64,000 nt of DNA from the NCBI GenBank assembly GCA_031763025.1, contig JASSKH010000038.1:1467001-1531000 (forward strand), read 5' to 3'. The translations under genes and the position numbers were made by a program. Of this stretch, positions 2,621 through 33,629 are shown piece after piece (position 1 is the stretch's first letter; each line of letters begins with the position of its first letter). The notes beneath the pieces are model-generated. The model was not told where the DNA came from. It searched no databases and worked only from the letters and a program-made list of their open reading frames with translations. This DNA is from Macrocystis pyrifera. Taxonomy: Eukaryota; Sar; Phaeophyceae; Laminariales; Laminariaceae.

Positions 2621-2900
2621 TTACTTGCTCTTCTCCTCATGTTCTTCAATTTCTTCAGTTTCTTTGAATTCTTCTTCTAATTCTTCTTCCTGATCAGTCT
2701 CCACGTCGTCTGCCTCCCATTCCACTACGTCGTCATCGTCCAGCTCGATGTCCACTTCATAATTGAAGTCCGCTTCACAATGGGTGTATGAGTGATCACT
2801 GTCTTGCTCGGCCGCAGATTCTGAACATCTGTAGTCGAGCTCGCCCTTCCACTTCAGCCCGCCCTTGGGGCTATTCTTCAGCTTTAGCTCGGAGCTGTCA
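2621..2900 (-). CDS. Gene A last exon: GGLKW block and acidic tail
   Basis: Acceptor GCGCAG before 2900; one base completes the split Gly codon, then 92 residues run to TAA. The peptide starts DSSELKLKNSPKGGLKWKGE, then LDYRCSES, followed by Asp/Glu-dense sequence ending EEHEEKSK. The matching exon of gene B (28020-28317) shares the split codon, the GGLKW core and a Ser/Asp segment, but its tail became a Gly-Glu microsatellite. The exon is below the size usually reported by frame tracks. Confidence 0.75.
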
Positions 2901-5900
2901 CTGCGCGTAGACGTACAGTTACATCATTAAAAGAACAGCGCCGGAGAGACGACGCGAGCCGGAGCGGGGGGTGGACACCGAACGGTTTCCGAATATTTCG
3001 GATACCGCGAAAGAAGTTCAGGTGAGGATGGGCCACAACAGCAGTCGGGTGATTTTTATGGATTTGTGCTGAAAAATTCGGTACGCTATGTATTGCGCGC
3101 CTTTCTTATGCGTCTATGCCAGACAGTGTGTTTAATCTCTACCGTACATTTAACACGAATTACCGGTGCTGGGGGTGATGCAAGAGGCCATTGCTTACGT
3201 CCAACATCACATGACTTTAAACTTGGTCCGGCGCGATGCACTGCCATGCGTCAGTGGTCGCGTCCATTTACCGTCGAGCGCAATGCAAGGACGTTCCGAG
3301 ACTACGTAAATATTTGCTGAGCGAGAACGCCAGATGGTTTAAGATGCCGGCTGGAAGTCGGTCAAGGACCTTATTTCCGCAAGCACAACAACTCTAAGCG
3401 CTATGACCCCGCACATCCCTGTTCTTCGTAACTTAGAAGAGGTTCTCACCCAACGCCAGCCATATCGAGGCCCGAACCAATCTCGCCGTTGACAATTTTG
3501 GTGGCAGTACCCGCCATTTGCTCAATCACGTCGCTGCCAGAAGGCATCTTCAGCTTAGGCGTCAAGTCCCCCGCAGAACCTTCTCCGGGGATAGGAAACC
3601 CATCCCCCGTCATACCGATAAACCCTTGGGGCGGCGGTTTCACTTTCGGGGCTGTTGCTATTTTCTTCATGAAATTTCCCATGCCTTCGCCTAGGCCAGC
3701 CGCAGGTTTTGCTGGCTCTAGGTTAACCCCGTCAGATAGGGACGGCGCGAAGGTACCCGGCGGGTTTGTGGCATGAAGGTCTTGTTGCTGCGCCATTACA
3801 TACTGCGATATCTCGGGATGGTCCTTTTCCAGATCTTGCTGGGGCTCGGCCGGAACCCCCGGGCTCCCGGGCATACCGAATAGAGAGGGGTCCAATACGG
3901 GCAACTCTGGCATTGACGAGGCCTGTAAATATTATGTTTCGTAGATGAGCACGTGTTGGTGTTAGGGTGAGTGGATCATTCGAGGGTAGGGAGCTGTGTA
4001 CCAGCACCCTTGAAAAACAAAACGAGTCAAGTCGAGGTGTAAAGGGAGAAGGACCTTCAGACACGGTTAATCTGGAACACAACAACAACAAAAAGTGTTG
4101 GAATCAAGTGATTGAATTTTTCACGGGGTGATGTGTACCGCGCGACCACTACAATAGCATGTGGGATGTTTTAGTCCGGAGGATTGGAGCCCGTCAAAGC
4201 CGGATAACAGTTCGATGACGCAAAAGGCAAACGAAAATAATCGAGGTAGCTTCGGCGATAATTTTGGGATGACTTCGACGGGGACGATATCCTACATCGG
4301 TATTCGGGGGCCTGCTGCCCTACAGGTATACACCGCGTGCGGGAATACCAGGTAAAAAATGTATATACGCTTCTTGGCCGACTATTGTAATTGAAACACG
4401 CCACGAAGGCAGCGAAAACCTACAATCGAGCTGGAACTTACTTCGATGCTGGCATCACTTGAGACGGTTTCCGTCGCCTGGCCTGTTGCGCTTTTAGCGC
4501 TCTGGCCGCTATGCGTTGCGCGACCGCCTCGGGCAGATTTCGCCGGATCGATTTCAGCTCTTGAGTGTGGTGGCGGCACGACGGGTCTGCGGCCTTTCTC
4601 CTCGGAGACATCGTGGTCGCCTCGCGACTTGACGCCGAAGTTCGAAGCAGTTCGAGAGTTTGACGGACTTGGTGCTGATGCCCCCAGAGGATGTCGCGTG
4701 CGGTCTTCTCGCGACTTGCTGCCGCTGCTTTTCGAAGCTGTTCGGGCGTCGGATGGTGTCGATGGTGACTTGCTCGGAGATTGTTCTGTTCGGTCGTCTA
4801 GCAACTTGCTGCCGTTGGTGTTCGAGGCGTTGCGGACGTCTGACGATTCCGATACGGAACCCGCCCGCGGATTCCCTGTGCGGTCGGTTTGCTCCTTGCT
4901 GTCGCTGCCGCTGCTGTTCGAAGGGTTGCGGGCGCCTGGCGAGTTCGATGCTGACCCCTCCCGAGAATGTCCTGTGTGGTCATCACGCGCCTTGCTGACG
5001 CTAGTATTCGAAGCAGTATGGGCATCTGACGAAATCGATGCTGATCGCCCCAGAGGATTCTCTGTGCGCTCGTCTAGCGACTTGCTGCCGCTGTTGTTCG
5101 AAGCGGCACGGGTACCTGACGAACTCGATGCTAACCCCTCCCGAGAATGCGCTGTGCGGTCACATCGCGCTTTGCTGTCGCTGGTGTGGGAAGCTGTGCC
5201 GGATTCTGACGAACTCGACGCTGCCCCCTCCCGAGAATATCCTGTGCGGTCATCTCGCGAATTACTGCCACTGCTGCTCGAAGCAGCACGGGCGTCTGAC
5301 AAGCTCGATGGTCCCTTTGGAGGATGTCCCGCGCTAAGAGAAGCGCGAGCAGGGTGATACAGTGGAGAACGAGGCGCGTCCCCACGGCCATCGGCCTTAG
5401 CGACTAGACTCTTTCGAGAAGGTGCCAGTCCGGCGTCGTTCTTACTATGTGTCACCTCCGTCGACGTTCTCGCCCTCTTGCCAGCATCTTCAGATCCTTT
5501 GGGGCGTGCTCGTTTGTCGGCGGGGCTATCTCGAACGCTGGTGGGGGGGAAAGGCGAGCTGTGGACACGTGTTGACCCGCTGGATCCTGCTGCTCGCGCT
5601 CGTGCTGCTGTATGTCGCATGTGCAAGGTAACACGGCAGCAACGAAGATAGAGACGAGAACAAACAAGGATGGCATTTCGTTGGATTCTCAGTCCGTCGC
5701 TACCCTTGTGCTTGGCGGACAATTTACCGCAAGGTGACATCACTTGAACCAGAGGCCAGGAATATCAGGCTAATATAGGGGTGCACCCACGTTTGTATGG
5801 GGTTTCACTCTTTTGTTTTACTTGCAAATTTACAAGTGCTGTAGTTAGGAAAAAATGGTCTCGAAAAAAAGTTGATAAGTTTGGAGAAATTGGAAACGTT

Positions 5901-8900
5901 GGAAAACAACAGGAACAGCTAACAAGGTTACACCACTACAGCATCAAGTCACCCAAAGACCGAGTATGAATCGACAAGCAACAATGCAAGCAGATGGTCT
6001 ACAGTAGAGAGAAAACATAGTGGAAGGAAGGAAGGAAGGAACATCGTTAGAACGTGGTGGCACGCTGGAAAGTCGAGTACAGCACCCACCGCTCGTCGCC
6101 GGGCCTCTGGGCTTCTCCCATCTTGTGGTCTTGTCTATTTCGTTCACGTAGTATCGCCGCCCGCTCTTGGAGAGTGCAACACTCCATCCTGCCGAAATGA
6201 TCAGCACGTTAGCAGCAGAGGGAGGAGCGAAAGGAGGCGATCAGGGCAACTGCTTCGGCGCCGGAAATACTGTAGTGACTCTATTACGGGCCATGTGCGG
6301 AGATAGCACCGATCTCCGCTGGGGACGCAGTTTAACTTTTTGTCAAGGTCAATGAAAAAGGATTCACCACCAACACAGCTACGGTACAGCGACGGACGGG
6401 ACACCTTGAGGTTCCCGCTATTTTGCACACGGGTAATTTTTCGGAATTAGTTATCTTCTCCCGTTTTCTTGTTGTTCTTGGTTTAGTTTTCTAGAAGAAG
6501 AAAATGAGACTCTCACACATTCTACCCGGTTGTGTGCTCGAGGAACGATGTATGCCCCATAAGAAACGTATGTGTGTTTACAGTACGGTAGTGTGTGCGG
6601 TAAAGACAGTTCAAGGGTGAAGCACCCCAGTCTACGAATACATAAAATACCCTTGAAACAATAAAAGCCTCCCCACTCTAACCTTCCGGAACCTGCACAC
6701 CAGGTCCCTCGGTGCCCACAGCTGGTTGGTCTCTCTCGTTCTCGCGAGCTAAGGACGGCGCAAGACCCTTCGGTGCGATGCTTGTCGCGCTTGACCTCAC
6801 ATTGCCGCCGCTGCTGCTGCTGCTGCTGCTGCTGTTCTCGCCGCTGCTCGTTTTGGTAGCGCCCTTACTTATCGTGGTGGCGACTGCTACGGGAGCTGTC
6901 CTAGCAGGTCTGGGATTCCCAGAGACCATTCCAGAGATCGTTCCACCTGTTGGTGCACGAAACAAGATTATAGGCTCTGTCACCCCACGGTAGGGGTTGC
7001 ACTGTTCGGGCCAAAGGTTTCTGACTGATTGAGTTCCCTAAGTGAGGAACCAGCAGTTCAGATAAAAATTTTACTCCTACATTCGTTTTAGGATAATCAC
7101 ATGCAAGCGCTGGTCGGGTGGCGCGAACAAGTTTCTTCCAAGTATTGTATCGGGTGAGATAATGAGCTCCTAATGTGAGGGGCTCAGGAACTTCTTGTGC
7201 ACCCCTACCGTGGGATGGCTAGGGTATGTATACGAGTGAAGTTGTCCTGCATTAGGAATATGCCTGACATAAATCGTACTTCAGTACTGTAAATTAATGT
7301 AAGCGCACGATGGTCGCACACAACGGTGGGCATCGAGACAATGCACTCCAGGGGGGGGGGGGGGGGGGGGATCGCACCGTGCGGAAGCTGCGCGGTGGAC
7401 TGCTTAGCGCCGACTGAAGACGGCTCGCCCACGTGTCGGCGACCTGACGTCGGTGCACCGCCGGTGCTGATGTCGCCCCTGCTCGTTTGTGTGACCCCCT
7501 TGCTTTTTGCGATCGTGACTGATACGAGAGCTGTGCCGGTGGGTCTAGGATTTCCAGAGCCTGTTCCAGAGACCGTTTCACCTGTTGGCGCGCGAAAACA
7601 AATTGGAGAAGAGGGCATGCAAGCCGAGAGCTAAAGCCGATCATGCAAAAAGTGACGTTGTCCTGCAAAAGAAATCCTAGTCTAACATAGATTATACTAA
7701 CGTTCGGTTCTATACAGATATGTGAGCACACGATAGCCGCACACAATGGCGGGCATCTACACAATGCACTCCAAGGGGGGGGGGGGAGTCGCACCATGCG
7801 GAAGCTGTACCGTGGGCTGCTTAGTGCCGACAAAAGACGGCTCGTCCAGTCGTCGTCGACCTGAAGTCGGTACGCCGCCGTTGTCGCCGCCGCTCGTTTG
7901 TCTGGTGTCCTTGCTGGTTTTAGGCGTGACTGTTACGGGAGCTGTGCTCGTGGGTCTAGGATTCCCAGAGACCGTTCGAGGGACCATTCCACCTGTTCGT
8001 GCACGAAAAAAGGTTGGCGAAGAGGGCATGTATACCAAGACAAAAGCCGATGAAAAAAAAGTGAAGTTATCCTGCATTAGGAATCCTCCTCTTACAACAT
8101 AGATTGTACTACTGTATTGTACATCAAGGTAAGCACACGATAGTTGCACACAACCGTGGACATCGAAAGCAATGATTTCCAAGGTGGTGGGGGGGGTCGT
8201 ACCTTGCGGAAGCTGCGGGGTGGGCTGCTTAGCGCCGACTGAAGACGGCTCGTCCACGCGTCGGCGACCTGAAGTCAGTGCAGTTTCCCTCGTTGTATCG
8301 GTTGTCGGGGTTGATTTCCTAGGAGTGCTGCCACTGCCTTCGCCGCTGCTTGTTCTTTTGCTGCCTGTGCTTGTTGTGGTGGTCACCGCTGCCGTGGAAG
8401 GACTCGTGTGTCTCGGTTTATCTGGGCTCAACTCACCTGGAGGCGCGTGAAATACCAAATACCGGAGAAGGTATTACACATGGCGCACAGTAGGTGTCCA
8501 CCATGAGCACCTTTTGCTAATCCACACAATATCCCGCAATAACCCCACGTGCTCACCTGAACAGTACAGCGCAGTGTAGTACAGTACTGTACAGTACTAT
8601 ACAGTAGTTTGTCCACAAAAAGTAGGTGCAAACCTAAAGCGGTTACATAAAACAATGAGTAGATCGCACTGCAGTACACTCAGCGCACGCAACAATCTGT
8701 CAATACTGTAAAACGTCATCCCTCGACTTGTAAGGGGAGCAGGAGGGGAGCTATTCAATTCGCACCAATCGGACGCTGCGAGGTCGACTCCCCAGTGCCG
8801 GTGGACGAGCGGTCTTTGTCGCGGTGGCGACCTGAGGACGGCGCCGTTTCCTTCGTTCTCGTGCTTGTCGACGTTGACTCCTTAATGCCGTTGCTGCTAC

Positions 8901-10434
8901 TGCTGCCATTGCTGCTGTTATTTCCGGTGCCGGCACCGGTGTTGCTACCGTCTGTGGAACGGCGCCCAGTGCGTTCCGGTTTCCCTGATATCGACCCACC
9001 TGTTGGCGCACGAAAACGCGATTATTTGTTATAGAACCCTGTCGTCACGGGAAGATGGACGACGACAACAACCACAAATAAAGTACAGCAACAGATGTCC
9101 TCCTTCGACAAAGATCGCCTCAGGCGAACAAACAACAGATACTACTCGTACTGTACTGTAGTCGCCAACACAATGCGAATCAAGTTCCAAGTCGCGGGCG
9201 GGGGGCGCACCGTCCGGAATCTGCGCGCTTGGCTCCTCAGCGACGACGGAAGACCGGTTGTCCACACGCCCGCGACCTGATGTCGGCGCAGCTTCAGTCG
9301 TTCTGACGGTCGACAAGGCCGGCCTTTTGTCCTTGCTGCTGCTGCTGCTGCCTTTGTCATTGCTGGTGCTGCTGCCTTTGGTGTTGGTGTTGGTGTTGTC
9401 CATGGTGCCACCCCTCCATGCGAATCTATCTACGTGAGAGCGGCTGGTGATTTTAGGTGGCCCTGAGATCAACCCATCTGTTTGGAGCGCGGGATAATAG
9501 TTGGCGGAAACAAAATGTCAAGAACAGATCGACAACGAAAGTATTATTAATAGCATTACAATGGCATACGTACCAATATACAATGTTTCCTCCTCCAACC
9601 TAGACGGCGCCGAGTGCATAGTACATGTACACGAACCACTTCCATGGAGGGAAGGGGGCGTACCGTGTGAAAGCTTCAAAGAAGATTCCAGAGCGCTGAT
9701 GGGTGACCGGTCCTCCACACGTCGGCGAAATGAGAAAGCAGCAGCTTCCTTCGTTCTAGCGCTCGTCGAGCTTGACTTCCTATAGCTGCTGCTGCTGCTG
9801 CTGAGGTCAGTGGTGCCAGTGCTCGTTGGGATTCTGACTGGAGAAGTGGGACTGGCGTGTCTCGCATTCCCTGAGATTAAAATCACATGTGTTGACGGAC
9901 GAATAAAGGGTTAACAAAGCAGTGCCGTTAAGAGCTGCAGGCCGATGGCAATGAAAATACATACGTGACCCAGGGGTACACGAAAAACAACTCTCCCGAC
10001 ACCCCACTACGCATTAGCGAGAACTAGAAAGGGAGAGACGGGGAGAAGGGTATACCGCAGTAAACTCACGTACGATACACATATGAAAAAACACTTCGTT
10101 TTCTCTTTTTGGTCGTGCATCCCTGAGTGTCTTGCGATCGGATATACTTCGAAAGACAAACCGCGACCTCAATAGTACAGCAGTACCGAAAACCTATTAC
10201 GGGGGTCCATAGTTAATGGGACCAAATATTGTCAGTAAAAATAGTTCAATATATAGGTTTTTATGTATACCATAGGTCCTATTTACTATGGACCCCCGTA
10301 ATAATAAGAGACGAGAGGTTTTGTCTAGACTGGATTTCTTTTTCGAGAATGGATGAGTTCTGCACTAGCTTCAGTACAACGACTCCCGAATTATCATTTT
10401 CCTGTATATCTCAGCCTGCTTTTCTAGTTGCCCG

Positions 10435-10486
<52 letters not shown>

Positions 10487-13400
10487 TATAGGTGTCCTGT
10501 ACTCTGAAAAAGGCTTGCATTCGGACATCTCTTTTTGACATAGATCGTGCGCAATACACGCACACCGTTAATCGGTACCGAAAATATGAGATCCAAGGAG
10601 AGGGGAGGTCGCACCATCCTCAAGCTTCGAGGTTGACTCCTCAGCGCGGACGGAGAGCTTGTCCGGTACACGTCGGCGGCCTGAAGACGGCCCGGCTGCT
10701 TTTGTTTTGACGCTTGTCGATGTTGACCTCCCGTGGTCGATGTTGCTGCTGCTGCCGCTGTTGCTGTTGCTGTTGCTGCCGCTGCCGCTGTTGCTGTTGC
10801 TCTTGCTGCTGCTGCCGCTGTTGCTCTTGCTCTTGCTGCTGCTGTTGCTTGCGGTGCTGGGGCTTGTTGTATCGCTGCCTCCGGGCGAGCGACTGGTGCC
10901 TTTCGTTTTCCCTGTGGTCGAGCCATCAGCAGCGGCTGCGAGAAAACGCGATTAGCAACGACAACGTGTCAAGAGCGGGCCGATGACGATACCAGTACCA
11001 CATTTTTTCCCTCCCTACTTTTGCGACCACTGTGTACGAGTTTCGACGTTACACGGCCAAACAATATGAACCCCTTCGAGGTTCTCGTTCAAGATACGGT
11101 ACCCGTTTCAGGTACTGTGCCCCTTGCGAGCGCCTGAAGCCGAGTATACCGATCACCGACGGCTATTCATATACGCGTACCAGGTACAAGGTTTCCCTAG
11201 TTTTCTTAAGCAACCGACGCACACAAGTTCTCTACAGATGTACTTTAATATCCTGCTGCGTGAGTTCTGAACGAGAGCTATACTACCGTGTCTTGTACCT
11301 GGTCTACGGTGGGGTAGGTCGCATTACGCGCACACTACATGGGCACAGCTCTGTTAGTGTACACCAACACGATGGATTTCCAGGTGGGGGGGGGGGGGGG
11401 GAGTTCGCACCGACCGCAACCTGCGAGGTCGACCCCTTAGCGCCGACGGTTGTGTGGCCCTCCGCCCTCCAGCGATCCGATGACAGTGCATCATCCTTCT
11501 TTCTAGCGTGTGTCGATGTCGACCTCCTATGGCTTTTGCTGTTGTTGGTGCTGCTGCTGCTTGTGGTGCCGGCTGTGGGTGCGGCGCTGACTGTGGGAGA
11601 CCCACTGGCGGTGCGCATTGGTTTGACTGAGGCCATGCCACCTGTTGCTGGACGAAATGGAGGGGTTAGACCACAGTACATCAAGAGCCAACCCGTGATG
11701 ATAGCAGCAGTGCAGTGACTTCCAATTTATATTTCACCTGTTCCACGGCCGAACTCCTATAGACACAACACCACCACAGGGAGGGACATAGGCATATTTC
11801 GACGCACTATCCTGGTAAAGTTCAACAGGCCTCCCACGTGCGTCAACGGTGACACGTTTCACACGACCAGAACAAGCATAGTTAGCAGCCGCCAAAATAA
11901 TGGTCAGAGCAGGTACCAACGTGCTACAGCAGTATTCCAGTATAGGTTACGGCCGGGAAAGACGTGGAACTTAAATCTACTGTACAGTAAAAAACAGTTC
12001 GTCCCCGTGGAATCCGTGTACCCCGGGAACGTAAATACCCGACGCGGCCTGGCCAGGGTCGCGATATATTATAACACCACCCGCGCACGATGCGACACCG
12101 CTTGCGGTGCCAGAAGCAATATTGTAGCACAGGCATTCACTTTGAAAAAGTGATAAACGTTTGCAGCTCTCCTACCGGTATCCCGCCGGCACAGCAGTGT
12201 ATCACCACGTGGAATTTAGTTTTCCACCGCAACGTTTTGCGTGGCCTATTTTGTGACCCCAAGCTACTACGTACTGCAGAGCGGCAGGGCATTGAACGGA
12301 TGTGGGAACAACCAGGGTCATAATCACGATCATCATACAACTCGCATCCGTTATGAAATCCACGCCCATAGCGGACGAGCAAATGTACGCGCGATTAAAT
12401 CGAACAGGCACAGCAGTACTCTCACCGACTCCATGAGATGATGTAGATTGGTCGGAGGCATGGGACGGGGCCGCGACGGGAAGTTCCCACGCTGTGGTCA
12501 TCTCGATGTGGTTGACGTAGAAAGTCTCTCCGTCTTTCGTTTTCGTCGCACTCCAGCCTTCGCGGTCAAGGAAAATATGGTACAGGAGTAACACATGGAA
12601 ACCCCGAGTTTACAACGCAGCGTATGATTGAAAAGGGGGGGTGTATTCGATATCATGCATCGTTTGAATTAAGGAGGGGGGGGGGGGGGGGGGGGGTACT
12701 TATTGTCATGCATCGCCGTAGTCGTATGATCATTGACCCCCGCATCCCTACAATGCCGGGATGGCGCATTAGAGAGGGGGGGGGCGTACTCATTTGTTGC
12801 TTGCCTTAAGTCATTTGTCCATTGACCATGCATCCCTTGCGACACGGAGCACCAGAGGGGGGGGGGGAGTATTGTGAAAATAGTTTGATATCGTTGCCCC
12901 CAATAATTTTGTGAGCACCATAATATAAAACAGCGTGTCAAACACGAAGCACAGTAAAAGACTGAAAAAAAACAGTAAAAAACAGTTTTTTGGATGACAC
13001 ACGATAGGGGCGCGCGACACTTTTGGGCCGAAATATTCCTGCCTGATGGGACTTCTGAAGTATGTAACGAACTACCCAATATCGAGTGCTTGTACGTACA
13101 CTACAGTCAGTATTTTTCGTTACAGATCGAGGCTACCCATAGGATTGCTCGTCGGGCTAAGTCACGTTCTACGATAGAGCGTTTTACATATTGGTGGGTG
13201 TGCTTCTTGACGCCCAGGAGTTTTTGAAGAAAATAAACGTAAACCATTGGGTGCACAGCCGACGCCCCCCGGTGGTCTAGAGCTTGAAAGTCCAAAGCAA
13301 TAAAACCAGCATCGTGCCTTTGAACCCCGCCGAGGATAAATCGTCTTTTGTGCAAAGAATATTTACAGAAAGTGGCTACGAGTAGCGTGGCAATGCACAA

Positions 13401-16400
13401 TTTGACGGGAATCGACCAGGGAAGAACCTGTCGAACATTTCCCAGGATACCCGGTATGAATTAAGGCGTGCACCGTGGTTTAGAGGAGGAGGGGACGGGG
13501 GCCTCTACGTGACCGTACTAATGAATATGACCAACGAAAGGGAGGGGGCCGGAGAATTAAGGTAAATATTATACTGTAGATTGGAGCGGGGGAGGGAAGG
13601 TTTAAGCGGATATGGACGCGATACCATGATAATGTTCACCTCTTGGAAGCCTTGGGGCATCCGTACGCGGCTTGTTCAAGCCCGGCGCTGGACTGCCGCG
13701 CTCTTTCTCCTTCATAGTACTGGCAGTAGAACTTGACCTTGCGTGGGGTGCCTCGAGAATGTCGTTGCGAGCAGCAGTAGCAGTAGCAGCAGATGCCCGC
13801 CCCCGCTGCGCTCTCTGTGCTCGCTGCGCTCTCTGCGGGTCGTACGTTAATACCAACAAGGTATAGGGATACATGTTATTTGAAACAATCGTACCAGGTA
13901 CATATTGGGCAATTCGCGGCAAAGGTGTACTGTAGTCGTGGCGATTGGCTTGCTCTCGGGTGTTGACTGAGTGGATCAGTCGTTTCAACCTCGGCAATCA
14001 AACAGCGTTGCTTGCTTCAAGTGGGGGGTAGTATTTGGGTTAACTGTGGAGGTAGGAACTACGGAGTTGTCTCCCTTATTTTCTTTGCATGATGCTTCGC
14101 TTCTTCAACGTTTTCTCCGCCCTCCCCCTCTATTTTATATAGGTTGGGTTTGCGTTGGTTGGCAACTACTCTGTAAAACATGCCGCTCACTACTTGAGCT
14201 ACAGAACCAGGGTACCGTTTTTTGTTTTTTTTTGCGGTCGGTCGGTCACAGCTGGTGGTCGAGTTCGATCATTTGTGGGAGATGAAGAATATGTACTCCG
14301 CACAAGGGGAATTATCGTATCGCGTAATGTTTATGGTAAGGCACCCAAGAGGCAATCACATAGTACTCCCATCGTTGTCTCTGCCAGAAGCTACACCGGG
14401 AATTAATTCAACTCATTGAAGTTGTAATACTTTTGCAAGTCCGCCTCACAAGCGGTTCTTAGTAGGATGCAGCTCACCCTTCATACGACTCGCCGGACAC
14501 CTCACGGCGCTTTGCGCTTGGTGCAAGCAATGCCTACCTGGTCGCTGAAAACCCGACGGACTTCGTTCCGGCGTTTTAGGGAAGCGATCGGAAGTTCTAT
14601 GGCTAAATACATATACCAGGTATATCTATATGACTACGGCCATGCATGATATCTAGTACATCTCTTCTGTCAAGTACACCCCCCCCCCCCCCACCGACCC
14701 CCCCAATAATGGCGTTACTTGTGGTCGTAGCGAAGGCCTTACCTTCGCCTTGTGAACTTCATACATCGATTGCTGGTTTTCTCCGCCACCCCTCCCTCTA
14801 TCAATGATGCCAGTTGTGGTCGTACCGAAGGCCTCACCTTTGAGTTGTGACCTCCATACAACGATCGCCCGACGCCCTCCGCTCTCCAGCCTACGCGACA
14901 GACGGAAGTAGACCCAGGAGGCGCCGCGTGGCAGAGAGTAAGAGGGAGTGTTCGAGCGAGCCCGCTTGCCGCCAGGAGACGATTTTCGCACTCGTCGCAA
15001 GCGCGGTACGTACGTGATAGCTCTTACTTCTCAACAAGAAATTCTGTAGTACTGTACTACAGCAGTACCTTACGGTGGACGATGCGCGAGCGAGTAAGCA
15101 GAACTTGCGGGCACTACGGTGATACCGCAGGAGAAATGGTACAGCATAGTTTCTCCGAAAAAGTTGAGGCGGAACAGGAGTAGTAATTGTTACCAAGCAA
15201 CACCCAACCACGAACCTCCACGAAAAACACAAAATCCAACGAACCTTGCAATTCAAGGTTGTTGGTTGCACTTCGGCCTGTTATCAATAATAACATTTTT
15301 TTACATATTTTGTGACTGGCGGGAGCGCCTCAACTGAAGATCTGACTGGTACACTACAAATATTACTGCACCCGCTCTCTTTGGGACACTGTTAATATAT
15401 CAATATGTGTGTTTACATGTTATTCGACGTATACTTAGGCTACCGTGCTGCGTTTTCGCTTTTTCTCGAGATCAAGGTTTGGGTGAGATGTACAGCGGTT
15501 GGTAGAGCTCCTCGGGCGACGAGCCCCGAAAGGAAGTAGGCGTACCGCTATCATGCCATGGGTCCAACCCTACTACTGTACATACCGTCTACTAATAATA
15601 ATGGCGGATAATTGCACCCACCCAGATGCTCTGGGGTCAAAGTACCTGGAATCATATCTTGATTGCGGTATGTGTTCGGAGAACAGAGGGGGGTGCGCAA
15701 CTGCATGCGGCTTGCATGGAGCGCGTGCAACTTGCACGGGTCGCATGGGTTGCATGGGGAGCCTGCAACGTGCTTGCAACAGCACGCAATTGCATGCAAG
15801 CTTGTAACTTCCTAAATTAACAAGTTGTGTTTTGATTGAACAGGTGCGCTATTGATAGACTTCGGGGTGGGGGAGGACAGCGCCGGGTGGGATCGAAGCG
15901 AGAGTAACTTCCATTTACCATTCCCATGAAGACTATTGAAGTACCATACTCATTCCATACCACTGGAGAGCCTTATCCATGGTTGAAAGTTCCACGACAG
16001 CAAAAGGGCGAGAGGTCTATGTAGCAGCGTTGATTTTCTTTGTGGCGCCATAGTCGCCAGTGAATCGCGTCTCACACCCAGCTTGCGAAGATGCTTTTCG
16101 AGGAAATTTTCTATCTCACTACAAACTGCTGAGTGAGGTGTCTTCCACAGCAGTAGATTAGTACGGTACGATCTTACAGCAGTACGGCAATATCGCTTTC
16201 GACGGGACTAAAAGGACCACTTGCTATTCATACTACTATAGTATGCAATGACATAACGCCTCTTGCATTTTCGTTTAGACACTACTAATCCTACACCTAT
16301 AGTAAGAGATGGGAACAGCAAGATGTGGTTAGATATTGATCGGGACGAGTATGGTTGTTTCTGAGAAGCTGTAATTCTGAAAACAAAAAATAAAAAGTGA

Positions 16401-19581: not shown

Positions 19582-19584
19582 ACG

Positions 19585-20545: not shown

Positions 20546-20553
20546 TTATTTAT

Positions 20554-20863: not shown

Positions 20864-20975
20864 ATTATATGGGAGGCCATAGTAAACAGGACCAAATATA
20901 GTTGGAAAAAAAAAAAGGAAAATATAAAGGTTTTTGTCTATACCGTAGGTCCTTTTTACTATGGTCCCCTGCAAT
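20864..20975. mobile_element. MITE M1, copy 3 (diverged)
   Basis: Left GGGAGGCCATAGTAAACAGG and right GTCCTTTTTACTATGGTCCC keep the inverted-repeat design. The centre has an A run insertion. Confidence 0.7.
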
Positions 20976-22410: not shown

Positions 22411-22413
22411 GCG

Positions 22414-22748: not shown

Positions 22749-22749
22749 G

Positions 22750-24230: not shown

Positions 24231-24240
24231 TGGATAATAT

Positions 24241-24316
24241 CACTCTGTCCCGAAATATAATCACCTTTTTGTTTAACACTTAGTGTAAAAAGTTTCTTAT
24301 ATAATGGGACAGAGTG
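24241..24316. mobile_element. MITE family M2, copy 1 (Stowaway-like ends)
   Basis: A 76-bp inverted repeat: CACTCTGTCCCGAAATATAA at the left and TTATATAATGGGACAGAGTG at the right. A second copy is at 54687. The CTCTGTCCC-type end resembles Stowaway MITE termini. The relation is inferred by eye only. Confidence 0.65.
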
Positions 24317-24352
24317 GTACCTGGTCTGGAGAATGGCCATGAAGAAGAAAAC

Positions 24353-24470
24353 AACGGGGGACCATACATAGCAAATAGGACCAGATAGTGTCGATAAAAT
24401 AGGGAAATATATAGGTTTTTGTGTGTACCGTACGTCCCCCATTTATTACTATTAATATGATCCCCCGTAC
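24353..24470. mobile_element. MITE M1, copy 4 (with small insertions)
   Basis: ACGGGGGACCATACATAGCA at the left and ATATGATCCCCCGTA at the right, with the family centre ATATATAGGTTTTTGTGTGT. The right arm has an extra TTATTACTAT. Confidence 0.7.
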
Positions 24471-25019
24471 CGTTGGAGAATGGCGGGGGGGAGGAAAAGA
24501 ACGCCAGCCAGAACGATGAGGAGAAACGAGAGTAAGAGAACAAGAAAAGGCCAAGCAAGAACGAACGTAGTTGTACGGAGGTCACCAAACAATAACATAC
24601 TGTAGGTTTACGTATCTGCCACGTGGATCGTGTAGTCGAGCCGGAAACCGTTGTCACACGGTATGCCATGGCCTTCCTACGCTCCTTGAAAATAGTGTGA
24701 AGTGTCAGTAATACTGCTCTGTCGCGCTATCCCTAGGATTAACTACATAGTAATAGGAGACAACACCTACCTAAGTGTACACGTCTCACTTTCGTCCTGT
24801 TCGGTATGGAACTTGGACAACCATGCCACACGATCTGCCTTTCTTTCTTTTTGGCTTTCTTGGGCGGCGATATCAGTACGGCTACTGCTGTACCCGCCTG
24901 TCCTTCCGCCCTTCAACTACCCCCCTACTCTGCTTGAATAGTGCTTTGCGTAGAATGGGATGCGCCGTGGTCAGTGCTGTGATGACCAAGGCAAGAGCAA
25001 ACGAGCACCCCCCCCCCCC

Positions 25020-25240
25020 GCCTCGGCCCTCCCATTGGCGCCACTCTAAGCGTCCTTTGCTGCATGGCGTAGCAGGCTCTTCCCCGCCACGTCCCTTCTT
25101 CCTCGACATGAATTAGTCAGCCGCGTCGACGACTCCCCCGGGTGATGCCGTTTGCCACATCTCCTCAGCCTTGGTAGGTCACAACACTGCCTCCACTCTG
25201 AGCGACGAATGTTTCCTCCCCGTGGAACCCTTGATAGCTT
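25020..25240 (-). mobile_element. Short LINE 3'-end relic
   Basis: On the minus strand the stretch GTCGTCGACGCGGCTGAC through GCTACGCCATGCAGCAAAGG aligns with the C-terminal region of the LINE at 46342-48604 (GTCGTCGAAGCGACGGAC, CTGCGCCACGCAGCTGAGG). The frame is broken by stops. It is a very small, old copy. Confidence 0.55.
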
Positions 25241-25499
25241 GAAATACCTGTGATGTAGTGTTCTCCTGCGCCTTCACCAATCATAGAAAAAGCTGAGCAT
25301 TGGATAAGATGGGGCCTGCTTCCCCGGCCGGTTGGCCTACCTCCTTGCATTTTCTGTCTCCGTTATCGTCGATCCCGATTGTGCTTGAGGTCGTCATCCT
25401 CGCAAAATTATGTTGTCCTTTTTCCCCCCCATTTTTTGTCCCCCGCCCTTCTTTTCTCTCTCCCTCCTACTGTAGATATATAGTCAGTCGTAACTCGGA

Positions 25500-25620
25500 T
25501 CCTTCTTCACACAGCAGGCTATCCTCTCCCCTCCCCATGACGGTACGTGTCTTTCAATTTCATCTGTAGAAGGGTTCAGCACTTTCTTCCCTCATCGAGT
25601 CGCGTCGAAGTGTCTAGAAG
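25500..25620 (-). mobile_element. Possible diverged SINE S1 relic
   Basis: The order of words (GGTACGTGTCTTT, AGGGTTCAGCA, TCGAGTCGCGTCGA) parallels the reverse complement of the S1 body, but similarity is low. Confidence 0.25.
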
Positions 25621-26310
25621 CAGTGGTGGTGTGGTAAGTGGTATGTGGTATTTGGTATCTGCTTCACGAACGCCAGACAGCATTTGATTCTGCTTCTTCT
25701 ACCCCGGTGAAGGAAAGGAGACGGGAGAGTGCGTACGTTTGATCTCCGTCTCCGTTGCTCCGCGCCGCCTCGAGTTTTCAATAAACATTCGAAATGACCA
25801 CTTATCAACATACATACACAACATATACACAACATCCAGCAGCATCCAACAGAAGGGCCAATCTCCTATTGGGGCTAAGGCATATGTGGCTCATTGTTAT
25901 GGCAACGTTGAGCATAGATGGGCTCTTCGAAGACTGGTACAAAATATTTGGAGCGTTCTTCGCTGGGCACAAGTTATCAGCTGTAATTATTTTATCAATA
26001 CCTCAGCCTAAATTGTTTATTGAATCTACAGCTGTATATGGCGGTTTTGTTACGGCTCGTGGTACGTCTGGACGCTTTCCTTCGCTGGGCCAAATTCGGC
26101 ACCCCTGCGAAGTTGCAGAACTGGTTCGACGATTGTTGGCCCAGCTGTGAAGTGGAGTGCATTTTGGCGCACAACAGCAGTACTTAAGTCACCAGCGCAG
26201 CTTTTTCCGGTAGGTCAGCTATGGACGGGGTATCCGCTATAGATTCACCTGCACAGACGTCTCGATTTTGGAGGTGTTGTTGAAAGGAGGCATGCTGGGT
26301 TTCGTATGAA

Positions 26311-26509
26311 AGATGGAGGCCGCTCCGGCTTATATTGCTGAGGTATGGCCGTGCCCGGTAGCGGGGGTTAAAGGCCGCACAAACCCTTGCGTCGAGGTGT
26401 GGCAGTCTCAGATGGAGGCCGCACAGGCTTTTATTGTTGAGGCATGGCTGTGCCCGGTAGCGGGGGGTGGAGGCCGCACAAACCCTTGCATCGAGGTGTG
26501 GCAGTCCCC
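26311..26509. repeat. 99-bp tandem duplication
   Basis: Two units start GATGGAGGCCGC at 26311 and 26410 and share TGCCCGGTAGCGGGGG, GGCCGCACAAACCCTTGC and TCGAGGTGTGGCAGT. The unit is 33 codons long, so both strands stay open across it. I see no other sign that it is coding. Confidence 0.85.
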
Positions 26510-26825
26510 GGATCTGATGTACAACCCCTGAGGATGCAGCAAGTTCCAAGTCCCTTAAGATATGGGCCGACAAGATCTCCCGGGCCAAGCTATCACTCAG
26601 ACGAGCGCAACATCGGGTACCACAATGACGCAAACCGCCGCTAACACGACTCCCCGATCATATCAAAATATATATATATATAATTTTGTTCTATATAGTA
26701 TTTTGCGGCTTCGGTCGTTCTCATCCCCTACACACTGGTATATCAGATGGTGTACAGTGCTGCTAGAGCCGGCACCGCATCGTACTGGCACTGGAAATGT
26801 GCCCCTGCCTCAATTCCAGCGTCTG

Positions 26826-26945
26826 TTTAGTTTGACATTCAACCCTGATTTCTACCCAACAACATCAGCACACCCAGTGCCGGTCCTGATTACCGATATT
26901 CACCGCATAGAGATACTACAGAGATACTACGGTAGCCATGGTGTC
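26826..26945 (+). repeat. R2 repeat, old partial copy
   Basis: TTGACATTCAACCCTGATTT, CATCAGCACACCCAGTGCCG and AGAGATACTACAGAGATACT follow the order of R2, closest to the copy at 45649. Confidence 0.45.
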
Positions 26946-26949
26946 ACAG

Positions 26950-28019
26950 TAGTCATGATACTGACAAGCCTAAACCCTCGCAATTTAACCCCGGGTTGAG
27001 CAAACAAAAGAAAAGTGTCAACGTATCGGGAATACGAACCAAACCACCGTAAAACAAGCCAAACAAGAGAACAGTTCGTACAACAGACAATACAACAACA
27101 TGAACGAAATAATGCTGCAATATGTATGATAAACGACAGTGCACTTACTCTTAACTACGTTTGCCAGGACAATTCAAGGCATGCGGTTCCTACATGTGAT
27201 AGGAAACACACATACACCACAATGAAAATCTAAAAACAATACCACCGTGGTATGTACCAAACACATCTACATTGTGATCATTCGTCCAAGCTCTACTAAT
27301 AGGTGAACATGCCCTCTAGAAACTACAGTATATGCTGATGCATTTGAAAACAACTTCCACCCGCAGTCACTGTCTTCACGAAGGTTGCAGTCAACGAGCC
27401 CGGGCCACTTGGAAACCAAGTCATGATATCCGCCAGTTAAGTCTTACTCCAATTACCAACTACAAAATATAATGCACCCTCTTCTCTCCTTCGCTGCAGA
27501 CAGCCCCGGCACAGCAACGAAGGAGGCAGCAACATTTACACGCGGTCCGACTACCTCCTCCCCCCCCCCCCCCCCCGACCCTCCTAGATGCCTTTCTTGC
27601 TTACTGTGCTCGCGCGCTTGACACACAAGCACGCCCTGCTACCCGTCCGCACGCACCACCTTAACTCCGATCACACGTGTACCATAGATGAAAAGGGCGT
27701 AGCGCAGCGCTTCTGAAGCTGAACGCTCATACTTCGGGGCACAGGCACGCCACATTCTTGCTTCCTAGAAGACAAAGGCCGGCAGTATATTTCCTCCCTC
27801 AGCGCACAGACATGCCGGCAAGTTTCCTCTCTCAGGGCACAGGCCCGCCGGGTACAGACACGCCGGGTATTTTTTCCCCTCTGACCTCTCCAATTTTCAC
27901 CCATTCTTCCCCCGCCTTCCGCTCCTTCGAGATCCCCCCCCGCTTATTCCCCTTCTTCTTTGTTCTTCTTCTTCTCCTTCTCCTTCTCCTTCTCCTTCTC
28001 CTTCTACTCCATCTCCTCC
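26950..28019. other. 3' flank of gene B, no gene supported
   Basis: The stretch contains a C run near 27560-27577. From 27960 to 28019 it already carries the CTTCTC-type low-complexity DNA continuous with the gene B terminal exon. No frame is supported. Confidence 0.35.
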
Positions 28020-28317
28020 TTATCCTTGTCCTTGTCCTTGTCCTTGTCCTGCTCCTTTTCCTTGTCCTTGTCCTTGTCCTTGTCCTTGTCCTTCTTCTCC
28101 TTCTCCTTCTCCTTCTCCTTCTCCTTCTCCTTCTCCTTCTCCTTCCCCTTCTCCTTCTCCCTCTCCTTCTCCTTCGTCTACCCCCTCCCCCACCTCGACG
28201 ACTATTCCTTCGCACTGTCCGTCCGGGTCCTCGCTATCGGAACCCCTGAGATCGACGTTGGCGTTCCACTTCAGTCCGCCCTTCTTCTTCTTTGTCAGTG
28301 TCACCTTGCAGTGGTCC
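28020..28317 (-). CDS. Gene B last exon: GGLKW block and Gly-Glu/Gly-Gln repeat tail
   Basis: Acceptor GCTCGCAG before 28317, split Gly codon, then DHCKVTLTKKKKGGLKWNAN and VDLRGSDSED. The tail starts EVGEGVDEGEGEGEGEG and switches to GQGQGQ before TAA at 28020-28022. The repeat is CTTCTC/CCTTGT on the plus strand, where it produces long Leu or Phe/Ser frames that are shadows. Confidence 0.75.
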
Positions 28318-31300
28318 CTGCGAGCAACAAACACAGTGCGTTGACGCGTTCAGATGAACGTAGGACGAAGAATAAGACCCAACGTGAGCACGCACGGTAC
28401 CAACCCATCCATTTTGGAACATGTCGCGTTTCACATTGGAGGGGGGTGCATGGCCGTAATCGTATGGCCACGGACCCTCGCATCGCTACAACACCGGGAC
28501 GGAGCACGTCGGGTTTTCATCGACCAGGCAGGCATTGCTTACACCAAGCGCGAAGCGCCGTGAGGTGTTCGGCGAGTCGCGTGATGGCTGAGCCGTATCT
28601 TACTAAGAACCACTTGTGAGGCGGACTTGTATATGGATGGCAGCTTCGATGCGTTGATGGGGGGGGGGTACTCGTTTGTTATCTTCCTTGGTAATTTGAC
28701 CGTTGACACGCATCCCTTCCGAGAGGGAGGAGAGGAGGGAGGGGTGACTGAGGGAACATCACCAACCAGCTGGAAAGGGTTAGCCAACGACTGAAATGTG
28801 CGCGATGGGAACCTTGCCTTGCAATATTCTCCCATGTCACGACATCCTCGCGTGTGGTGACAAGGAAGCACACATAAAAAGTGCATGCTTTCTACTATCC
28901 GTAAACTCCCTTTATGGACGACATGTACAATGGAGCGTTGAATTCTTAACGTCAGAGCCCGCGCAATGATGCTAAATGAGTACGGTAGTCTCGGTGTTCG
29001 TGGAAGAAAAACTGTGCGAAAATACTCCGTTGGATTTTGATCAGACCACACAACAGACTGCACCCGTCTGCTCGCCCCCCAGGCTTTCTTCGGTTTTCTT
29101 GAACATTCGAGCTGTGAGCTAGCTGGCGATAGGCCACCCACTCCAGGTAACGGCTAGGAAATAATGTCTGTTGCGTGAGGTAGTTCACGGTGTTCTGTTT
29201 GTTTTGATCTTGATTGGTGTATTTTATAGCGTGGTAATGAAGACGAAACGCAGTATTTTTGCTTTGTTCCCCACCCAACCTGTAACCAGCCGCCAAGCAG
29301 AGGCAATAAGGCAAGCCTTGGTCACAGCTCCGCACGGTTGAAGATCCGAGTGAACACATTTGATCGAGATCCCACTGCAAGGTCTTATCGTGATTTGAAC
29401 TCGACCAAACGCTACAATAGACGCAAGCGACGAATCCTTATCCCCGCGAGTGCCAGTATCATCGGTGCACTCGCACTTAACCAGCCTCCCAACGTACGCC
29501 CCTGCCGTAAATCTCACCCAAGGCCGACCACATTTAAGCTCGACTTCACGATGCCGTTGAACAACTTGACTGTCGTGTCGTGCCTATCCCCCTTGCTGTC
29601 GTCGCCGCTGCTGGAGCTGGATGGCTTTTTCTTCTTTTTGGGCTTCAGATCCTTTGCAGAAAAGCCTCCAGGGATAGTGAACCCGCCGCCGGTCATACCG
29701 ACGTAACCTTTAGGAGGCGATTTCACGTTCGGGGCGGTGCCCAGTTTCGTCATGAGCTTGCCAATGCCCTTGGATACCTCTCCCGCAAGTCCTGATGGGT
29801 GTGTCATACCTGTAGGCTCGTAACCCCCCGGATTCCCCCGGTACAAGGACGGCTGCGCTGCACTCGGCACAGCAGCAGCGGCGGGCATGCCTGGCCCCCC
29901 GGGTGCGACATGAAGGTCTCGATGCTGCGTCGTCGCTTGCTGCGTCGTCGCTTGCTGCCTCGCCATCGCCTGCTGCTGCATCATCATCTGCTGCTGCATC
30001 ATCATCTGCTGGTGCTGCTTGGGCATCGCCCGAAATTGCTTCATCATCTGTTCCTGGACGTTCGCCGGGAGTTGCATCCCAGCAGCCATGCCGAAGAGGG
30101 CAGGGTCGAACGTGGCCGCCTCCAGCTGTGACGGGGCCTGGAATTGTCGGGTTCAGACAAGAACGGGGTCGAACAAAAAAAGCAGTTGTTACTCTGTTGA
30201 TTAGTCTGATAGAAATCGTGCAAACCAATAGGGTACGCTAAGAGACTCTGAGTAGAAGACATTGCCACAGCAGCGCCGAAAGCGAAAAATCACTAGCCTG
30301 GGACCTCCAAGCCTGGTGCTCATTCTGCTACTGTACTATAGAGCCCGGAGTGATACAACACACCCAACGTTTGAGCGAATTGGCGTTTAGGTATGTGGCG
30401 GTACGAGTGTTAGACGAGAAATACGATCGGCCTTGGTGTCCGCCCCTCAAAAGTTCGGGTCCCACATTCTTCACCTAACTCAGGGTACCGTCGACTGCCG
30501 ATATAGAGTATACCACGAGAGCACAACATGGTCGAGGTCGGTATATACCCTAGGTCCAGTCTGCCTGTAACTCATGGTCGCGCTCACATCCTTCGAAGCC
30601 GCCCCCGTCGTCTGCCCCGTTGCACCCCCCGCGCCCCGACTGCTGCTCTTGGTAACGATATCACTCCGGGCAGCTTCCCGTGACTCATTTCCAGTGCCCG
30701 GGCCCGGTGGCTGCCCAGCCGCTCTGCTCCCTTTCTCGGTGGAGATGTGGCGGTCGTGTCCTCGCGGCTTGCTGCTGCTGCTGCTGCCGCCACCGCCGCT
30801 GTTAATAGCGGCGCGACCATCTGATGAACGCGATGCTGGCCTCCCCGATGAGGTTCTCGTCTTAGCGTCGTCACGAGGTCGATCCGGTAAAGCAGGTGGT
30901 GCGCCCCCGCGGGTAGCGACCATAGCAGCGTCCCGTCTCTTGCGTTGTCCCCTGTCGGCGTTGCTGTCACGGCCGCTGGAGGAGGAGGAGAGCGAACTTT
31001 CGGGTCGTGCCGATCCGTTAGACTCTGTCACCGATTCGGGGTTTTGAGGAAGGGAGAGATGAAAGAGGGAAAGCACCAGAAGCGCGGAAATTTTACTCGA
31101 TAAAGTTAATCTCGTAGCTGACGCCGCGGCGATGCTAGAGGTGCAGATGCGCCGTTCATGCCACTGAGTGGAAGCCTTCCCCTAGGTAAACTCTTCACGA
31201 AATAGAAACCTTCACAAAGTAGCAACTTTCGCCACGGGCCTCACGGGGTTTTCCGAGCTGACGCTCTCATTTCAGCACAGTCGTTACGCTCTCATTCCAT

Positions 31301-33629
31301 TGGGTGTTAGCTGGAAGGGGGCACCACGACCCCTAGCGCCAGCTCTCGTGGCAGGAACCGAGTGCCCGTATGTTCATCTTGAATGCTAGCTGGCATCAAC
31401 GGCCTACCACAACCCTCCATGCGATATCCAAAATTAGCACTCCACATTTCCGAGCAGAGTAATACGTGCTTGGGGTTCAGACCCTGTCGGCACAATCTAC
31501 CCCTCTCACAACACGCGTAACCGCTTTGGTCGACGCGGCAAGAGTAGAAAGAGAGGCAACCCACCATTCGGCCTCTCGCACGTCGGCTTCTCCCATTTGT
31601 TGGTCCCGTCGATGTCGTTGTGATAGTACTTCCTTCCGCTCTTCGAGAACGCCACACTCCATCCTGCAGGTCAGAGGAAGAGAGAGAAACGGAGGGATCA
31701 CTGGCGAGTGGTGAGGGTATACTGTACAGCACGGTAGGGTTTCGACAAAATACGACAACCCGACTCACGCCTCCTTACGATGCTGCTGCCGCAATTCTTC
31801 CGTCTCTAGTCGACTTCAGGCCCCGAAGAATTTCCGGCGGGTGGGACAACAGTTCGCCGCAAGTTACTGTATTGTCAGGTCTAACGAGACAACGATTCCA
31901 ACTTGAAGGATTGTGGGATCGTGCATTCGAGGGGCTTAACTGGTGTCAAGGGGTATGAGTCATGCAAAGTTGTCCCCACGTCTCGAATACTTGCTGTGTT
32001 AAGGCCAAAATTACTCCGACAAGCACGCTCCACAAAACGACATCACTCTGGGGCTTTCGGACAATCTACCCACAGCCACCGTCAAAGTTCACGGTGGATA
32101 GAAGGACCAACGCAACCACTAACGTATTCCAAATTTTACTGAACTTTCTATGCATGCATGTACCATCTGCCATGCACCATGTGCCGATCCTGGAAACAAG
32201 GCGGACCGCATTTTTCGTACCATGCGGAAGAGGTGAGGTCGGTTCCTTCATGCCGACGGATGACATCTCCCCCCCCTCCTTCTCCTCGAGGCGGCGGCTC
32301 GAAGATGGTGCGCTATCTTTCGGTTTGCTCTTAGTCGAGCTCGACTTCCTGCGGCTGCTGTCTGCGGTCCTGCTGTTGCTTCCGCTTCTACTGCTGCTGC
32401 TGTTGCTGTTGCTGTTGCGACTGGTGCTTGTCGAAATTCCTGACATCGGGCGACACGGTAACGGACCAACGGGTGACAGCAAAAAGGTTCCTTAAACACG
32501 TTATGACCTTTGTACCCAAACTTCTTGGAACTCGAGATTGGGATATTTTTAATGCAATGGGGGGAAAGGGGGTAGGTTATACCATAGTAAGAGCGCCGAG
32601 CTTGCAGAGGGGTACGATCGATGAGTTTTCAGAGTTCGTTTTCTCGGCAAAGGTGAAGGCACTAACATCGAGCGTTACCTTTTCGGAAGGCTCTCCACCA
32701 GATCTCTCCGAAAACACCTCGTTCCGTACTGGCAACCTTTCCGTTTTTAAAAAACCGAGCGCCTAATATTGATTGTACCCCTGCGAGGTCTTGATTTACA
32801 TTATTACAGTACGAGATTAAGGGGAAATCGCGAAGCAAAATTACTATTAATAACTACAGCACCGACCATAAGGAGTTTGACCTTGGGCTGTGGGCTGGGG
32901 GGTGGACGGGTGCGTCCTTTGATGGATATAAATTACATACACCGCACTTCTATATATAGGTGTTTTGTGATCGTAATGCCATCATACCTGACTCCAAAGG
33001 GTTAATGAGCAGGTCGGGTATCAAAAAGCAAGATTAATGATGAGCATTATTTCACGATACTGTTCCTCCTTCTCCACAGGTTTTATCGACATATCCATGT
33101 ACAACAATCACCAAACCGACGGGCTAAATGTGGCGCTTATGATAGGAGCAAAACAAATGCACCGACAAATGTGACAACAGCAAGACTGGAACGCGGCAGA
33201 GAAAAAAGAGCGATGAAGCTGGGCGTCTCCAGCCGTATGCTCCAAAATTGGGTATCGATTAGTTTAACTCTTGAATTAGGCAGCCGAGAGTGTCTGAGAG
33301 TGTCAGGTACGCTTGGGAGAGATCCGCCAAAATATCGCCACAGAGCTTGGTTTGTACGAGCTGGCTATATAATATGGCCGTGCTGCGCACACATACATGG
33401 ACGCACTACCAACGCTACCCCTCGGATCCGTCGCACTACTAAATAGGCAAAATACTGAGGGTATTGTTTGCATTGCGGTAAACACGATATCGACATACGC
33501 ATATGTAAAGGAAACATGTGGAAGCCTTGAGGCAGTCTCACCTTCAGGGACGCTTGACGATTCGGTGTAGGGCTTGGACGACCGGTGCGTTGAGCTCTCC
33601 GGCGCTCTCTCGCTCGAATCAGCGCTCGA
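28020..33629 (-). CDS. Gene B: WW-domain, Ser/Gln-rich paralog of gene A (5' end unresolved)
   Basis: Minus-strand model: 33629-33542 (tentative), 32439-32221, 31663-31565 (WW), 31024-30588, 30137-29518, 28317-28020. GT-AG junctions and phases 1, 1, 1, 0, 2 give one frame of 586 codons to TAA. The last four exons correspond one-to-one to the last four of gene A with identical phases. Differences from A: one WW domain instead of two, one or two Ser-rich exons instead of about eleven, no 30-residue repeat, a Gln/Met-rich stretch in the GMTG exon, and a Gly-Glu/Gly-Gln repeat tail in place of the plain acidic tail. The two genes lie in the same orientation about 11 kb apart, so a tandem gene duplication is the simplest origin. 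The function is not recognised. Confidence 0.75.
28330..29510. other. Intron between the last two exons of gene B
   Basis: About 1.2 kb between donor 29517 and acceptor 28318. Minus-strand frames at 28539-29141 and 28952-29380 are open, but splicing them in would break the phase match shared with gene A. A poly-G tract is at 28660-28670. Confidence 0.5.
29518..30137 (-). CDS. Gene B 'GMTG' exon with Gln/Met-rich insert
   Basis: The 620-nt exon is phase 0 in (acceptor TTCCAG) and phase 2 out (donor GTGAGAT). It begins APSQLEAATFDPALFGMAAG and continues with QEQMMKQFRAMPKQHQQ and a Gln/Met repeat (CAG-type microsatellite, absent in gene A). It then has EVSKGIGKLMTKLGTAP and the conserved block (core GYVGMTGGGF, TIPG), a Lys/Ser run and the end FNGIVKSSLNVVGLG. 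Confidence 0.8.
30588..31024 (-). CDS. Gene B Ser-rich exon
   Basis: The 437-nt exon is phase 1 in (long pyrimidine tract, then GGTGACAG) and phase 0 out (donor GTGAGCG). The peptide has Ser runs, a basic part (GQRKRRDAA), Gly and Ser runs (GGGGSSSSSKPRG), and ends RGAGGATGQTTGAASKD, aligning with the ATGQATE end of the gene A exon. Confidence 0.75.
31565..31663 (-). CDS. Gene B WW-domain exon
   Basis: A 99-nt, phase 1-1 exon: W-S-V-A-F-S-K-S-G-R-K, YYHNDIDGTN and K-W-E-K-P, then a short Cys/Arg/Pro tail. The acceptor is CCTGCAG with a good pyrimidine tract and the donor GTGGGTT. It is the direct counterpart of 6090-6188 in gene A. Confidence 0.85.
32221..32439 (-). CDS. Gene B Ser-rich exon (array type)
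   Basis: The 219-nt phase 1-1 exon starts GISTSTSRNSNSNSSSS and has SSRRKSSSTKSKPKDSAPS. It ends SSVGMKEPTSPLPHG at donor GTACGAA. The ending is the array signature of gene A (SSVGAKQPTxQLPHG), which shows that the ancestor already had this exon type. Confidence 0.75.
33542..33629 (-). CDS. Gene B, tentative upstream Ser-rich exon
   Basis: Acceptor CACGTGCAG before 33629 and donor GTGAGAC give an 88-nt phase 0-to-1 exon: SSADSSERAPESS, then HRSSKPYTESSSVPEG. The end 'VPEG' at a phase-1 donor matches the array exons of gene A. A 0-to-1 exon would need another exon upstream. Confidence 0.45.

Follow-up and report, generated by a model that had tools for sequence, protein, structure and literature searches.

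A tandem pair of putative WW-domain adaptor genes in Macrocystis pyrifera

Two neighbouring genes of Macrocystis pyrifera, here called A and B, are probably old tandem paralogs encoding WW-domain adaptor proteins, a reading that forms part of the joint explanation we judge best. Both are carried on the minus strand of the window (the whole stretch of 64,000 nucleotides that was analysed), A at ~13.8–2.6 kb and B at ~33.6–28.0 kb in window coordinates, and they have four exons in common. Of these four, the WW exon of 99 nt (phase 1-1) comes first in both genes; the Ser-rich exon (1-0) and the GMTG exon (0-2) follow in turn, and the gene ends on the GGLKW/acidic exon (2-end). The succession of exons, their phases and their homologous blocks are thus all shared, as is expected of tandem paralogs.

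Exon models of the two genes

The first-pass annotation of this DNA had assigned four exons to each gene, and we re-derived their order, lengths and phases from the sequence in both A and B. Our models extend beyond these exons to WW1 and S1–S9 in A and to S1 in B. Once joined, A has 14 exons and 1430 codons including the last and B has 5 exons and 558 codons including the last, both without internal stop and with GT-AG at all internal junctions, the splice sites and exon joins being inferred from sequence. The parts of the two genes are as follows.

Gene A
13640–13832, minus strand: possible 5′ exon (0-1), Ser-rich; a weak candidate read by eye, with uncertain boundaries
12426–12557, minus strand: WW1 exon, 132 nt, 1-1, WW domain GWSATKTKDGETFYVNHIEMTTAWELP; Pfam WW 31.6 bits against a cut-off of 26.9
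11411–11641, minus strand: S1, symmetric Ser-rich exon, 231 nt, 1-1; other acceptors possible
10615–10935, minus strand: S2, symmetric Ser-rich exon, 321 nt, 1-1, with internal 30-nt and 6-nt repeats; other acceptor possible
9664–9870, minus strand: S3, symmetric Ser-rich exon, 207 nt, 1-1; other acceptor possible
9211–9477, minus strand: S4, symmetric Ser-rich exon, 267 nt, 1-1; tail like B S1 (0/2000 shuffles)
8766–8999, minus strand: S5, symmetric Ser-rich exon, 234 nt, 1-1, bounded by eye; tail like B S1 (1/2000 shuffles)
8203–8436, minus strand: S6, symmetric Ser-rich exon, 234 nt, 1-1; tail like B S1 (0/2000 shuffles)
7795–7992, minus strand: S7, symmetric Ser-rich exon, 198 nt, 1-1; inside the 411-bp tandem unit (7235–8276)
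7378–7581, minus strand: S8, symmetric Ser-rich exon, 204 nt, 1-1; inside the same 411-bp tandem unit (7235–8276)
6683–6946, minus strand: S9, symmetric Ser-rich exon, 264 nt, 1-1, bounded by eye; against B S1, tail 212/2000 and whole exon 0/2000 shuffles
6090–6188, minus strand: WW2 exon, 99 nt, 1-1, the WW exon of the first-pass annotation; Pfam WW 39.8 bits
4442–5586, minus strand: Ser-rich exon, 1145 nt, 1-0, with 7.4 copies of a 90-nt repeat; 5′ acceptor one of several candidates
3450–3922, minus strand: GMTG exon, 473 nt, 0-2; from exon model, homologs and shuffles
2621–2900, minus strand: GGLKW/acidic last exon, 280 nt, 2-end, TAA stop; from exon model and shuffles

Gene B
33542–33629, minus strand: possible 5′ exon (0-1), Ser-rich; a weak candidate read by eye, no clear A counterpart found
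32221–32439, minus strand: S1, Ser-rich exon of the kind of A S1–S9, 219 nt, 1-1, preceding WW; from exon model, shuffles and ORF comparison
31565–31663, minus strand: WW exon, 99 nt, 1-1; Pfam WW 34.1 bits
30588–31024, minus strand: Ser-rich exon, 437 nt, 1-0; from exon model and shuffles
29518–30137, minus strand: GMTG exon, 620 nt, 0-2; from exon model, homologs and shuffles
28020–28317, minus strand: GGLKW last exon, 298 nt, 2-end, with a hexamer-array Gly-Glu tail and TAA stop; from exon model and shuffles

Elsewhere in the window, a 99-nt unit occurs twice in tandem (89% matches) at 26311–26506, inside a 157-aa open frame without Pfam match. A LINE-like reverse transcriptase frame (PF00078) occupies 47008–48453 (minus strand), and copia-like retroelement frames occupy 59009–62915 (minus strand), where zinc knuckle, Pol_BBD and integrase core scored over the Pfam cut-off in 60867–62915 and no Pfam match was obtained for 59009–59815. 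A 180-bp match (83% identity, opposite orientation) between 28478–28657, in the last intron of B, and 14408–14587, upstream of A, is likely a dispersed repeat.

Likeness, copy number and age of the pair

The likeness of A and B was judged against composition shuffles, scored relative to the A/B alignment score. For the WW, GMTG and GGLKW exons this score was reached by 0/2000 shuffles each, with 19 of 26 aligned residues identical between A WW2 and B WW. The GGLKW exons have a 28-residue block in common, and a 27-residue stretch (0/20000 shuffles) scored 56 against the frame of B and at most 37 elsewhere in the window. The whole Ser exon was not above composition (86/1000), in contrast to its last 60, 80 and 100 aa (0/5000 each). 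Hence the aligned blocks described in the first-pass annotation hold for WW, GMTG, GGLKW and the 3′ part of Ser, but not for the Ser exon as a whole. In an unfiltered comparison of open reading frames (2.5–27.9 kb versus 27.9–45 kb; 218 rows at E ≤ 0.05), GMTG ranked 1 (9.6e-26), WW 2 (3.1e-14), a dispersed-repeat-like frame 3, B S1 versus the S exons of A 4 (2.3e-9), Ser 5 (1.2e-8) and GGLKW 37 (2.0e-4). In a version of the comparison that hid rows dominated by one residue, the upstream flanks of A and B gave no 5′ exon pair among the best 41 of the 218 rows, only dispersed-repeat-like frames.

All three WW exons scored above the curated Pfam cut-off for WW (PF00397, 26.9 bits), two having been found in gene A and one in gene B. 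Genome-wide there are at least 71 WW matches (150 of 184 candidates scored). Exon phases were surveyed in the WW clusters on contigs C208, C219, C203, C191, C223 and C128, excluding WW matches with E > 0.05 and loci repeating the window. On C208 the nearest AG is two bases before the Trp codon (phase 1) in 12/12 scored WW domains, with Gly split in 11, and the first donor candidate is in phase 1, 40–55 nt past the domain, in 11/12, the twelfth being cut by the locus end. The nearest AG has the same phase in all five WW domains on C219 (Gly split in 4), where the first donor candidate is in phase 1 in three; C203, C191, C223 and C128 have few WW domains and do not follow this pattern throughout. 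Symmetric WW exons are therefore arrayed elsewhere in the genome, and the phase of the WW exon, taken on its own, is a weak argument for the pair: the matching phase pointed out earlier is indeed 1-1 in both genes, but 1-1 WW exons are a wider class. On C208 the phase 1-1 WW exons are arrayed in tandem at 3.94–4.10 Mb, and one locus (L021) has three identical WW domains (GWSRRTTTTGEVYYANDADRTTTWTRP) and a fourth that differs from them at one position, at a spacing of 0.8–1.0 kb, apparently copied recently. Six WW matches on one strand over ~11 kb of C219 (17.90–17.91 Mb) probably belong to a WW-rich gene.

We searched the genome (537,376,219 bases, 223 contigs) with the GMTG exons, whose copies in A and B are on the same strand ~26 kb apart. 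A GMTG retrieved itself and B (2.2e-12) and nothing more at E ≤ 1; B GMTG retrieved itself, A (3.1e-12) and two chance-level matches (E ~0.8), and no convincing third copy was found in the 537 Mb. What had been termed a gene family is, within the searched genome, two genes. A profile of both GMTG sequences detected eight relatives (E ≤ 0.01) in 5.8 billion proteins, with candidates limited to 0.55–1.75 times the query length (160 residues). In the tree of the ten GMTG sequences a 100/100 branch parts an A-like group (A, P0003, P0007, P0008) from a B-like group (B, P0001, P0002, P0004, P0005, P0006). Since the eight relatives fall into both groups, the duplication appears to be old, and it would predate the splits within each group if the root, a midpoint drawn by the program, is on the 100/100 branch. 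P0001 and P0003 (96%) possibly derive from the same species or a very close one, and some B-like rows, all the relatives coming without genomic context, may be further copies from one genome. The same profile gave 77 pattern matches in viral contigs and 177 in bacterial and archaeal genomes, of which none was confirmed; the pair is apparently lineage-restricted. The longer spliced protein was not found in the protein database (query: B protein, 520 aa, region 253–485), nor was a GGLKW homolog (query: B GGLKW residues 1–42). Adjacent GMTG copies, no convincing third copy and separate A-like and B-like forms support the earlier proposal of a tandem duplication followed by unequal repeat growth.

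With symmetric WW exons arrayed elsewhere in the genome, A and B could resemble each other through exon shuffling into two unrelated genes rather than through whole-gene duplication. This we consider highly improbable, given that the GMTG (0-2) and GGLKW (2-end) exons are asymmetric and come after WW in an order common to the two genes, and that GMTG is without a convincing third copy. It is just as improbable that A, B or both are undergoing decay: low-complexity expansion would be compatible with it, but the 14 exons of A and 5 of B are free of internal stops, and in other sources the GMTG frames of the remoter A-like and B-like relatives are still open, although the two 96% relatives say little here. 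Tandem duplication of a whole gene hence remains our preferred origin for the pair.

Growth of the Ser-rich arrays and the last junction

S1–S9 of A and S1 of B are all in phase 1-1, with lengths divisible by three, the phase being partly a selection since the exons were picked by a search for phase 1-1 candidates, and each S exon of A has an open frame and GT-AG sites. In a Pfam scan of all ten, no family, LRR and TPR among them, passed its cut-off; LCE, AdfA and MDFI (E 0.13–0.48) in S1, S3 and S5 were rejected as below the cut-offs and in low-complexity sequence. Compared with whole S exons of A, the score of B S1 was reached by 0/2000 shuffles for S5, S6, S8 and S9 and by 2–47/2000 for the other five; with tails alone, the counts were 0/2000 for S4, S6, S7 and S8, 1/2000 for S5 and 52–217/2000 for S1, S2, S3 and S9. 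Over the 21 pairs among S4–S9 and B S1, exons and flanks are about equally alike (global alignment inflates the values), and therefore exon and intron were seemingly copied together and constraint on the S exons seems weak. Between S4–S9 and B S1, changes at codon positions 1, 2 and 3 amounted to 76/308, 106/310 and 138/308 (non-independent pairs), lowest at the first and highest at the third, which counts in favour of the preferred reading. Within A, the 15 pairs among S4–S9 have 224, 243 and 286 changes, respectively, and this small third-position excess, together with the similar flanks, points to weak selection on the S exons.

Repeats in A comprise a 411-bp unit present 2.5 times (7235–8276) and a 90-nt unit present 7.4 times in the Ser exon, and those in B a hexamer present 35.7 times (27965–28175) in the last exon and 15–21-nt repeats in GMTG. 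As far as can be read from sequence, these features show that in A symmetric 1-1 exons were copied, introns included, in the stretch bounded by its two WW exons, in-exon repeats adding to the growth, and that B grew through hexamer and short GMTG repeats; being symmetric, the copied exons would have left the frame unshifted. Compatible with the best explanation, and deserving appreciable though less than even credence, is the possibility that the S exons of A are alternative or skipped and that the full 1430-codon protein is never made. All nine are 1-1 and multiples of three and so freely skippable, they are weakly constrained, and PMC11378527 describes alternative splicing of arrayed LRR exons in brown-algal ROCO genes; against this, every S exon has an open frame and GT-AG sites.

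Both GMTG exons end in GG followed by GTGAGA, and the next exon provides T (A) or G (B) to complete a Gly codon, in agreement with the common split Gly codon reported in the first-pass annotation. Reading through the donor GTGAGA meets a TGA stop, and a phase-matched AG acceptor lies 549 nt (A) and 1200 nt (B) downstream of the GMTG end. The GGLKW block common to both genes behind a matching acceptor favours a splice donor over a true stop. Were the GMTG frame truly to stop at this TGA, GGLKW would be unjoined, or joined in part of the transcripts, and this would fit the ends of the GMTG proteins, which share one alignment column in 10/10, and the protein database, which yields no GGLKW homolog and none joined to GMTG. 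We nevertheless regard a true stop as improbable in view of GTGAGA in both genes, the matching-phase acceptor and the common 28-residue block, 27 residues of which gave the 0/20000 shuffles above. With a splice donor at this position, keeping the last intron would place the TGA at the junction and give a form without the acidic tail. No ATG, GTG or TTG precedes GGLKW in its frame in A (by eye), which would therefore be missed by gene callers.

Proposed function and comparison with known systems

The genes had been called unrecognised, and this still stands: in neither gene does the Ser, GMTG or GGLKW exon reach the cut-off of any Pfam family, GMTG has no convincing relative among solved structures, and no description of such a gene was found in the literature searched. 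TFIIA (E 0.028) in B GMTG and TrAA12 (E 1.7e-4) in the Gly-Glu tail were rejected as below the Pfam cut-off and in low-complexity sequence, and the sole match of the 10-row GMTG alignment to solved structures (E 0.8) was not accepted. An AF2 model of GMTG from the same alignment had a mean pLDDT of 50.9, a pTM of 0.11 and no residue at ≥70, and GMTG is predicted to be disordered. A holds a bipartite-NLS-like stretch, KRARPKGSEDAGKRAR, and B two KKKK runs; these may be nuclear signals, NLS-like runs being common in low-complexity protein.

Judging from sequence, A and B most likely encode disordered WW adaptors that are restricted to one lineage and perhaps nuclear. WW domains are binders of proline-rich peptides. 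The plan of the proteins would be a WW domain flanked by long Ser-rich disordered stretches, a conserved disordered GMTG block and, last, a short KGGLKW motif plus acidic tail. They could act as flexible scaffolds, probably nuclear, in which WW would hold one proline-rich partner and the conserved C-terminal motifs another, with the Ser arrays serving as spacers and phosphorylation sites; such a role as flexible adaptors we put forward tentatively, at less than even odds. A bolder and rather unlikely proposal is that the pair founds an undescribed family, whose S-exon array would be a length-tunable, alternatively spliced disordered linker spacing WW-bound and tail-bound partners, with A and B forms long kept apart.

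Among solved structures, the best matches of B WW are WBP4 (5.3e-7) and then PRP40, and its sequence ends, like theirs, in WEKP, as if A and B were divergent members of a spliceosomal WW family (WBP4/FBP21 or PRP40). We find this quite improbable, as no Pfam family scores above its cut-off in the S, Ser, GMTG or GGLKW exons and the best matches of A WW2 are NEDD4-like and YAP WW domains; with the two WW exons nearest to different proteins, WW likeness does not place the pair. WBP4/FBP21 combines an N-terminal zinc finger with two WW domains next to each other. The two WW exons of A are ~6.2 kb apart with nine S exons between, and one WW was found in B. In PRP40, FF domains follow the WW domains; the Pfam scan of the Ser, GMTG and GGLKW exons, A S1–S9 and B S1 gave no FF match over cut-off. 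In YAP, the His of ‘NHND’ reads the Tyr of PPxY, and this residue is Asp in B WW (alignment) and Glu in A WW2 (by eye), and is kept as His in A WW1. A and B as lineage-restricted WW adaptors thus remain the preferred reading.

The pair adds a conserved, apparently undescribed WW gene pair, and is also a case for gene finding, in which a 99-nt exon and low-complexity exons conceal what is probably a real gene. Brown-algal ROCO (LRR) and NB-TPR genes have arrayed, shuffled exons (PMC11378527), and the likeness to A and B is in one repeat per exon, constant phase and tandem exon copies. The LRR exons of ROCO are 72 bp and in phase 2, unlike the 198–321-nt, phase 1-1, Ser-rich and WW-flanked exons here, which have no known domain, and in place of arrayed LRR or TPR exons the pair has ten S exons without LRR or TPR match. 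The pair has the growth mode of the ROCO/NB-TPR exon arrays with another module (PMC11378527), symmetric-exon growth yielding Ser-rich linkers here as against the LRR/TPR repeats reported there in brown algae.
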